Origin: Hyphomicrobiales bacterium
GTDB lineage: Bacteria; Pseudomonadota; Alphaproteobacteria; Rhizobiales; Xanthobacteraceae
Assembly: GCA_021730985.1 (NCBI GenBank)
Contig: JAKFYI010000025.1
Span: 1 to 64,000 of the forward strand
Direction of reading: 5' to 3'
Length of the DNA: 64,000 bases
Shown here: positions 12,839 to 52,843 of the stretch, piece after piece
Layout of the letters: each line of letters starts with the position of its first letter
How positions within the stretch are numbered: position 1 is the stretch's first letter
Made by a program: the position numbers and the translations under genes
Notes under the pieces: generated by a model
Seen by the model: the letters and a program-made list of their open reading frames with translations, nothing else
The model's database searches: none
Told to the model about the DNA's origin: nothing

Positions 12839-13825
12839 ATGAATATGATCGCATCCATGGCCTCCCCGCTCCCCGATCCCGATACCCTCGAAGCCAGAAA
12901 GGCCCAGGCCCGCGCCTGGTTCGAGCGGCTGCGCGACGATATTTGCACAGCCCTCGAAGCGGTGGAGGACGCCCTGCCACAAGGCGCGCCGCTGGCCGAG
13001 CGGACGCCCGGCCGGTTCAAGCGCACGCCTTGGCAGCGCACCGACCATTCGGGCGCGCAACCGATCTCGGGTTCACCCGAGATCGGCACTTTAAGTGCCG
13101 GGTCGGCCAAGGCCGGCCCGGCTGGTGGCGGCGGCGTCATGTCGATGATGTCGGGCCGCGTGTTCGAGAAGGTCGGCGTCCATGTCTCGACTGTGCATGG
13201 CGAGTTCGCCCCGGAATTCCGCAGCCAGATCCCCGGCGCCGAGACCGATCCGCGGTTCTGGGCATCGGGCATCTCGCTGATCGCGCACCCGCAGAACCCG
13301 AACGTGCCGGCCGTGCACATGAACACGCGTTTTGTCGTGACGACAAAAGCCTGGTTCGGCGGCGGCGCAGACCTGACGCCATTGCTCGACAAGCGCCGCA
13401 CCCAGGACGACCCGGACACGACGGCTTTCCACGCCGCGATGCAAGGCGCCTGCGATGCGCATCCGAAGGTCGCGCCGTACCAAAAATATAAGACGTGGTG
13501 CGATGAGTACTTCTATCTCAAGCACCGCCAGGAGATGCGCGGCATCGGCGGCATCTTCTACGATTATCTCGAGAGTGACTGGGACGCGGCGTTCGCGTTT
13601 ACGCAGGACGTCGGCCGTGCGTTCCGCAACATCTATCCGGAACTGGCGCAGCGCAACTTCGCCACACCGTGGGGCGACGCCGAGCGCGAGGAGCAACTGG
13701 TGCGGCGCGGCCGCTATGTCGAGTTCAATCTGCTGTACGATCGCGGCACCATCTTCGGCCTGCGCACCGGCGGCAACGTGGATTCGATCCTGTCGTCGAT
13801 GCCGCCGGTCGTAAAGTGGCCGTGA
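12839..13825 (+). CDS. hemF: Oxygen-dependent coproporphyrinogen III oxidase
   Basis: HemF converts coproporphyrinogen III to protoporphyrinogen IX with oxygen in haem synthesis. The 328-residue protein carries the family body: [48 protein letters not shown]. It is longer than most because about 20-25 residues (roughly 72-95) are inserted between WQRTDHSGA and GGGGVMSMM. This insert is encoded by a DNA run of three perfect or near-perfect hairpins at 13061-13121 (annotated separately). The reading frame is intact, so the enzyme is probably still made with a surface loop there. Confidence 0.93.
13061..13121. repeat. Triple-hairpin palindromic element inside hemF
   Basis: Three back-to-back inverted repeats fill 61 bases of coding sequence. 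First, an 11-bp perfect stem (13061-13071 with 13076-13086, loop TTCA). Second, a 7-bp perfect stem (13085-13091 with 13093-13099, one central T). Third, an 11-bp stem (13098-13108 with 13111-13121, loop AA) containing one T-G pair. Neighbouring hairpins share one or two bases. The element corresponds to the extra residues in HemF and keeps the frame. It looks like a REP- or RPE-type mobile palindrome that inserted in frame. Confidence 0.8.
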
Positions 13826-41163: not shown

Positions 41164-41204
41164 CTAGAGGGCCTGCCGGTTCATTGAACCGGCAGGCCCT
41201 CTAG
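41164..41204. repeat. Perfect 41-base inverted repeat
   Basis: Two 20-base arms (41164-41183 and 41185-41204) are exact reverse complements around a single central T. It begins 12 bases after the preceding palindrome, in the divergent SDR/SnoaL-like spacer. No T-tract follows on either side, so it is not a normal terminator. It could be a mobile palindrome or an unusually long operator. Confidence 0.9.
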
Positions 41205-52579: not shown

Positions 52580-52793
52580 CAGGGCCTCCTGGGAGGATGG
52601 AAGGTTGGATTCGGCGGCAACCGATCGGGTCGGCAGCGCCTTCGATATGCGGCTTGGGCTCTGTTTACTTTGAGCAATTGTCGGCTCTTCGGGCGGTCGC
52701 GCAAGGCCAATATTCGAGCAACGGTTGAGCGATGTTTGATCGTTTGCAGCCCCAATCAAGATGGAGCAGCTACGCGCTTCACGCCGCAAATAA

Positions 52794-52822
52794 AAATGGC
52801 CGGGCAGATTGCCCGGCCATTT
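52794..52822 (-). terminator. Terminator of the Tim44-like gene
   Basis: A perfect 13-bp stem (52794-52806 with 52810-52822, loop GAT) lies 22 bases past the stop of the Tim44-like gene and continues on the minus strand as a T-rich run (TTTTTATTT). Confidence 0.9.
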
Positions 52823-52843
52823 GCATTTCATCCGTACCCGAAC

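Follow-up and report, generated by a model that had tools for sequence, protein, structure and literature searches.

The window that we analysed, a stretch of 64,000 nt from the genome of a Hyphomicrobiales bacterium, contains hemF on the forward strand (positions 12839–13825), which encodes an oxygen-dependent coproporphyrinogen III oxidase of 328 residues. The protein matches PF01218 over residues 95–327 (Pfam, E-value 4.2e-84), and solved structures of nine distinct sequences match it. By comparing filled and empty sites we located a net insertion of 63 bp, or 21 residues, in the region 13055–13120 of the same strand (residues 73–94). The exact ends of the insertion are ambiguous because the terminal CCGG of the element matches the target's own CCGGG, and since the ends match the target, a target duplication is likewise unreadable. 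A preliminary description of this DNA had proposed an in-frame HemF insertion of about 20–25 residues, with the open frame maintained across a set of hairpins; both points hold, as the frame is open through the insert and most relatives lack the 21 residues.

Most of the insert is made up of two hairpins, which are separated by a spacer, all on the forward strand. Hairpin 1 (13061–13086, CCGATCTCGGGT-TC-ACCCGAGATCGG) has perfect 12-bp arms at 13061–13072 and 13075–13086, and the second hairpin (13098–13121, CCGGGTCGGCC-AA-GGCCGGCCCGG) pairs over 11 bp, including one T·G pair, with arms at 13098–13108 and 13111–13121. Between them lies an 11-nt spacer (13087–13097) that is unpaired in the minimum-energy fold and shows no covariation. 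The fold of 13059–13122 beats all 200 shuffled sequences, with z −6.9 as DNA and z −8.2 as RNA, and both outer hairpins are present in the minimum-energy fold of either. In this copy the spacer belongs to a perfect 15-nt dyad, GGCACTTTAAGTGCC (13085–13099), which had been described as a third, middle hairpin with a 7-bp stem. This candidate overlaps the arms of the outer hairpins and is missing from both the minimum-energy and the centroid folds; in a set of 17 hemF inserts it pairs no better than expected by chance (its share of paired cells was equalled or exceeded in 134 of 500 column shuffles), and pair 29–35 is broken in ten of the 17. Of the three hairpins reported at 13061–13121, the outer two are thus borne out by folding and covariation and the middle one is not, the perfect middle dyad being a peculiarity of this copy.

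Such hairpins are rare in the window, yet not unique to hemF: 11-bp stems with loops of 2–6 nt occur eight times in the 64 kb, whereas 20 first-order Markov simulations average 0.45, longer repeats being scored more than once in window and simulations alike. The window also holds a perfect 20-bp inverted repeat at 41164–41204 (arms CTAGAGGGCCTGCCGGTTCA and TGAACCGGCAGGCCCTCTAG, 1 nt apart), which is not of the hemF family and sits about 35 bp before an apparent gene start, as well as a terminator-like pair of 19-nt arms at 52788–52828 (89% complementary), with a GC-rich core and A/T-rich ends.

We aligned HemF from related genomes across the site. A query with the whole protein matched 57 of 61 genomes, and most of these alignments break at about residues 72–73 and resume at about residues 92–95. 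With a 62-residue query spanning the site, 375 of the 391 genomes of the family matched, and a similar insert was aligned through in 19 of the 375 at an E-value of 1.6e-15 or better (among the matches listed; dissimilar inserts may escape). A twentieth carrier, G006, has a different hairpin pair at the same hemF codon. The 20 carriers fall into ten genera (g1, g3, g9, g20, g55, g56, g57, g58, g62 and g66), and, as a caveat, the five hemF-carrying records with titles that we examined (L217, L257, L266, L275 and L281) are all metagenome assemblies. Relative to the standard empty site of 54 nt, the added length is 63 bp in six carriers, this genome included, 60 bp in nine and 57 bp in two, while shortened or degraded copies remain in G146 (54 bp), G177 (45 bp) and G157 (39 bp). 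The site has the clean standard length in 52 of the 56 non-carriers used for the tree below, the exceptions being L036, L122, L029 and L051. Two of the carriers, G006 and G362, have a partly different insert peptide. That most relatives lack the insert residues leaves the mobile-element reading of the preliminary description standing.

What is conserved in the insert is the DNA, not the protein. In all 105 pairs of 15 carriers (leaving out G006 and G362, which have other hairpins, and the damaged G177, G146 and G157), identity at third codon positions was higher in the insert than in the rest of hemF, 0.82 versus 0.585; as the carrier pairs are not independent, this tally should not be read as a probability. 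At third positions the highest value among 20-codon windows of hemF was 0.69, and at four-fold sites the insert was the higher in 95 of the 105 pairs. At codon positions 1 and 2 together, identity was 0.85 in the insert versus 0.83 in the rest of the gene. Covariation was assessed across 17 hemF inserts (G177, G146 and G157 left out) with 500 column shuffles. The outer hairpins are paired in 94.9% of cells, with nine pairs changed on both sides, and their covariation score of 0.166, versus 0.076 in the shuffles, was reached by none of the 500. They exceed every shuffle on four of five measures, the fifth, further pair types, being reached by nine of 500. In the second hairpin, seven of 11 pairs carry changes on both sides. 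The loops also vary by inversion: TAAA replaces TTTA in two of the 17 inserts, and one insert has TGAA where this genome reads TTCA. The inverted loops and compensatory stem changes fit template switching between hairpin arms. In the passages on this process in two published studies, template switching is a mutational mechanism that accounts for compensated stems and inverted loops (PMC8794818, PMC8604942); the precedents there are RNA genes and yeast coding sequences, whereas the case here is a palindromic unit. At the protein level, an AlphaFold model of HemF built from a 29-sequence alignment had a mean pLDDT of 80.4, with residues 72–92 below 50. This low-confidence segment lies between the strands at residues 61–66 and 97–104, just ahead of the conserved GGGG motif, and the insert is accordingly modelled as a slack, disordered loop.

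The hemF insert has counterparts elsewhere. The recurring unit, about 60–66 bp long, is a hairpin with the core TCGGGTNNACCCGA, a spacer and a second hairpin; outside hemF it measures 57–71 bp, most commonly 62–64 bp (124 units), and its spacer is 8–17 nt long, most commonly 10–12 nt (126 units, two of them hemF copies). The stem of hairpin 1 is the commonest of the family, occurring with a TT/AA centre in 35 of 95 sampled hairpins. Pairing extends over at least 11 bp in 74 of 91 hairpins sampled outside hemF (one central position per hairpin was not scored for pairing, so that 12 counted corresponds to 11 paired), with 11 different outer stem sequences among them. In this genome, which is 86% complete, TCGGGTNNACCCGA has five sites, versus one for a reversed control pattern: the one in hemF, one near the N-terminus of purF that keeps the frame, two that are the hairpins of a single unit on contig 10, and one on contig 14. 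The search for further copies that the preliminary description had called for thus found them in the host genome and also among its relatives: of 100 related genomes, 35 have the hairpin, 25 of them at two or more sites. Counting this genome with its 100 relatives, TCGGGTNNACCCGA occurs in 36 of 101, with at least two sites in 26, and is most frequent in G066 (37 sites), G009 (29) and G024 (27). Single sites may be due to chance, since the control pattern occurs once each in ten of the 101 genomes. Hairpin 1 followed by RGTCGG was found in at least 118 stretches in GTDB. Among the matches listed (80 titles), the hosts are Hyphomicrobiales or are given unspecifically as Alphaproteobacteria, Proteobacteria or Pseudomonadota; those named include Xanthobacteraceae, Pseudolabrys, Pseudorhodoplanes, Rhodoplanes, Methylosinus and Methylocystis. 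At four loci of G030 (L197, L200, L201 and L202) no more than 40 nt separate the copies from contig ends, which suggests that longer identical repeats broke this assembly. The unit is also present on four IMG/VR contigs (L325–L328), of phage or host DNA.

Several other genes carry the unit in frame, as judged in a screen based on an ad hoc GC3 rule. In hrpB of G009 (L176/L208) the gene continues on both sides (HrpB_C, E-value 1e-51); an hrpB query matched 42 of 61 genomes, and among the matches listed only that of G009 was long enough for the 22 inserted residues. A two-sided, in-frame unit is likewise found in the gene for the large subunit of a molybdopterin dehydrogenase at L242 and in a gene for a DnaE-type polymerase (by Pfam) at L308; the same junction recurs at a contig end at L224, and we take the polymerase gene at both loci to be dnaE2-like. 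A query with the dnaE2-like protein matched 40 of 61 genomes, some of them solely through a unit copy elsewhere, and was aligned through the insert region in five (G019, G021, G011, G027 and G036). In G021 (L330), the one of these five loci read in sequence, the gene has a different in-frame insert, a CGTC-type REP pair, in the same region as the TCGGGT unit of L308 and L224. The dnaE2-like protein thus joins HemF as a case in which palindromes of different kinds have entered one and the same loop. The text search that located this insert gave nothing at L224 or at the 11 other loci obtained with the query. The L224 protein also contains two more in-frame repeat-like peptides (PPPLWGR...PLPNPPP...), apparently from another type of palindromic repeat. 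At L219 the unit lies near the C-terminus of a gene that is presumably RluB-like, by its sequence, and further copies form C-terminal tails on MetF, a ChrB/rhodanese protein and RecO. These tails on MetF, ChrB and RecO, together with the purF N-terminal stretch, are weaker cases than the two-sided insertions. In purF (L086, contig 3 of G000), two in-frame hairpins precede ECGVFG; an ATG within the first is a possible start, but the second hairpin has to be translated unless a CTG start is used.

Part of the unit copies lie at the tips of larger palindromes. In G009 (L175), for example, the unit is placed between TCATTCCGGGGCGCGCCA and TGGCGCGAGCCCGGAATCC, and a short-loop palindrome, TCATTCCGGGGCGCGCC-GAA-GGCGCGAACCCGGAATC, can be set against similar arms in which the unit replaces the loop. 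Short-loop forms of such palindromes, such as TCATTCCGGGGCGCGCCGAAGGCGCGAACCCGGAATC, were present in all six genomes searched. The arms flanking the unit are complementary over at least 6 bp in 30 of 124 units versus 4.9 expected from shuffled partners, and over at least 5 bp in 41 of 124 versus 12.3 expected. At least one of the REP-like flank words searched was present at 71 of the 124 units and none at 53. Since a clear flanking outer stem is seen in only 30–41 of 124 units, hairpin tips are not the sole target. The outer palindromes around many copies fit the description of CGTC REPs, as far as that description is given in the text on these repeats (PMC3733652). The G004 genome has 77 short-loop TCATTCCGGG REPs on one strand and 88 on the other; among the places listed, their variable tips are mostly still self-complementary.

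How the unit relates to known systems bears on the proposal that it is a selfish palindrome like the Rickettsia palindromic elements (RPE) and that no element of this triple design was known from this order. As in the RPE-like class, the unit occurs both between genes and in frame in conserved genes, and orthologues that lack the insert show a clean site (52 of 56 rows). The Rickettsia elements RPE-4, RPE-6 and RPE-1 are likewise short, dispersed palindromes that lie between genes and in frame in conserved genes, as summarised in a study of REP-like repeats (PMC3733652). They differ from the unit described here, which consists of two hairpins of about 12 bp with the core TCGGGTNNACCCGA in GC-rich Hyphomicrobiales; RPE-4 and RPE-6 correspond, by the same account, to CGTC-tagged repeats (PMC3733652), whereas our unit is untagged. 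When we read the flanks of the hemF unit directly, neither a terminal unpaired CGTC (or TGTC/CCTC) tag nor a terminal GTAG-type tag was present. The passages of that 2013 study on intragenic repeats also report in-frame REP-like palindromes outside Rickettsia, often encoding 20–30 residues, with targets that include DnaE2, RNA helicases and pseudouridine synthases, and insertions into recB at nearly matching positions in two Xanthomonas species (PMC3733652). The GTAG/CGTC REPs, in what is reported of them there, share with our unit the targets (dnaE2-like, hrpB and RluB-like genes) and the nesting in other palindromes, but differ in being tagged and in that our unit has a recurrent site, hemF, across ten genera (PMC3733652). 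In the same order, the palindromic repeats Br-REP1 and Br-REP2 are described from intergenic regions of Bradyrhizobium in the relevant text (PMC5082802): Br-REP2 is similar to the CCGGAATGA palindromes on either side of many units here, Br-REP1 belongs to an element of three stem-loops, and the Br-REP consensus CCGGAATCTCGAGATTCCGG is not the TCGGGTNNACCCGA hairpin. We found neither the family nor its recurrent hemF site in the running text of the papers searched, and short sequence strings gave, among the matches listed, what looked by title like chance primer or marker matches. The family and its hemF site therefore appear to be new to print, while the phenomenon itself is not, in-frame REPs having been reported in 2013 in the portions of text cited (PMC3733652). 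By this analysis the unit can be classed as a new RPE-like palindromic repeat of Hyphomicrobiales, its likeness to RPE being one of behaviour.

The distribution of the hemF insert was followed on a tree of 76 HemF proteins from which the insert site was left out (20 carriers and 56 non-carriers, a non-random choice of rows). The carriers are not one clade: an AU test rejects 19 of them as a single clade (p 2.8e-12; G006, a fragment, was kept among the other 57 rows). The state of the site needs 13 changes on the tree, at least seven of them forced by well-supported branches, gain and loss being indistinguishable in this count. Shuffled labels need 17.9 changes on average, and only 2–3 of 500 shuffles were as low as 13; carriers are thus more clustered than chance, and part of the pattern is inherited. 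Carriers also adjoin empty relatives, as with G278 next to G344 and G358, and G176 next to G144. Repeated gain is favoured by the empty sites being clean, whereas visible decay leaves remnants. A hemF-specific subtype of the second hairpin instead favours one or few origins: GGGTCGGC or a near relative forms this hairpin in 15 of 17 alignable hemF inserts, and none of the 124 units outside hemF contains GGGTCGGC, which makes it less likely that copies were drawn into hemF again and again from the common stock. The second hairpins of G006 and G362 are of a type found elsewhere in genomes, and these inserts are either separate arrivals or rewritten copies. Other copies of the unit are present in seven of eight hemF carriers versus 23 of 53 non-carriers (Fisher p 0.023, weak evidence as the genomes are related). 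The 20 known carriers would go back to a small number of insertions, perhaps a single one, at the same codon, after which the element was repeatedly lost, transferred or inserted anew. A bolder version makes hemF a true landing site, at which a hemF-adapted subtype would have been gained repeatedly at one codon across the family by the same single-stranded, hairpin-tip-directed process that operates at REP palindrome tips, so that proteins would grow by parasitic palindromes at fixed loops; we put this forward tentatively and consider it somewhat doubtful.

The reading that we favour, with a probability of about 0.8, takes the hemF feature for a single member of a dispersed family of non-autonomous palindromic repeats in Hyphomicrobiales, lying in frame in a HemF loop. 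On this reading the unit would spread as folded single-stranded DNA by way of hairpin tips and lagging-strand gaps, copies within genes would be tolerated only if they keep the reading frame open and fall in a slack loop of the protein, and the stems would afterwards be kept perfect by replication template switching between the arms and not by selection on HemF. No mobilising enzyme was found among the candidates considered. A RAYT (Y1) transposase (PF01797) as partner was rejected as not general: of 14 genomes with copies, four have one, and G000, G009, G024 and G080 do not (G000, G009 and G080 being 80–86% complete). In L188 two copies lie 1.16 kb apart; that they bound a composite transposon was set aside as well, the open reading frames between them looking metabolic by eye and none of them transposase-like. 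Of the earlier comparison to RPE, then, the in-frame insertion at the DNA level stands, while a selfish nature in the sense of active mobility goes beyond the results, no transposase having been linked to the element.

Four other explanations were weighed against the dispersed-repeat reading. Ordinary homologous recombination at hemF could have carried the inserts from one species to another, with no property of the element needed, and both the hemF-specific subtype and the conflict with the gene tree would agree with this. Codons within 12 of the site, however, are no more alike among the 19 carriers than under shuffled labels (490 of 500 shuffles at least as high), so that a shared flanking tract is not seen, and we regard this route as rather unlikely. 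The unit could also be a REP dimer variant within the CGTC REP superfamily and not a separate family, given that many copies sit inside palindromes fitting the CGTC REP description and that CGTC REPs, in the sections describing them, also heterodimerise and enter genes (PMC3733652). Membership is nevertheless improbable, since the hemF unit has neither a CGTC nor a GTAG tag, the unit stems lack the paired AT described at the base of CGTC stems, and 53 of 124 units have none of the REP-like flank words searched.

The remaining two explanations place the selection on the hemF product. Hairpins kept as a functional RNA element that regulates hemF translation or mRNA stability would account for the DNA-level conservation, the covariation and the strong RNA fold (z −8.2). 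This is very unlikely, as the insert is missing from most HemF-bearing relatives, the unit also lies between genes and in unrelated genes, and three carriers (G157, G146 and G177) hold only shortened or damaged copies. No Rfam family reached its gathering score in the window, the one sub-threshold match scoring 15.8 bits versus 82, and at seven other unit loci the only Rfam matches, to tmRNA and tRNA genes, lay outside the unit. If the 21-residue loop were instead a selected part of HemF, the maintained frame and a peptide recognisable across ten genera would be expected features; yet codon positions 1 and 2 of the insert are barely above position 3 (0.85 versus 0.82, compared with 0.83 versus 0.585 in the rest of hemF), the loop is without confident structure in the model, and the peptides of G006 and G362 are partly different, which makes such an adaptation very improbable. 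The dispersed repeat remains our preferred reading, with hemF an unusually recurrent coding site for a known kind of in-frame palindrome.

In-frame palindromic insertions are best known from the obligate intracellular Rickettsia, where they are often ascribed to small populations. Here the same behaviour is met in a heme-synthesis enzyme of Hyphomicrobiales, where comparison can draw on many lineages, on sister sites that are empty and on copies in decay. The system makes it testable, by sequence comparison and simple genetics, how palindromes spread without a known transposase, and whether compensatory stem changes arise from structural selection or from template switching.
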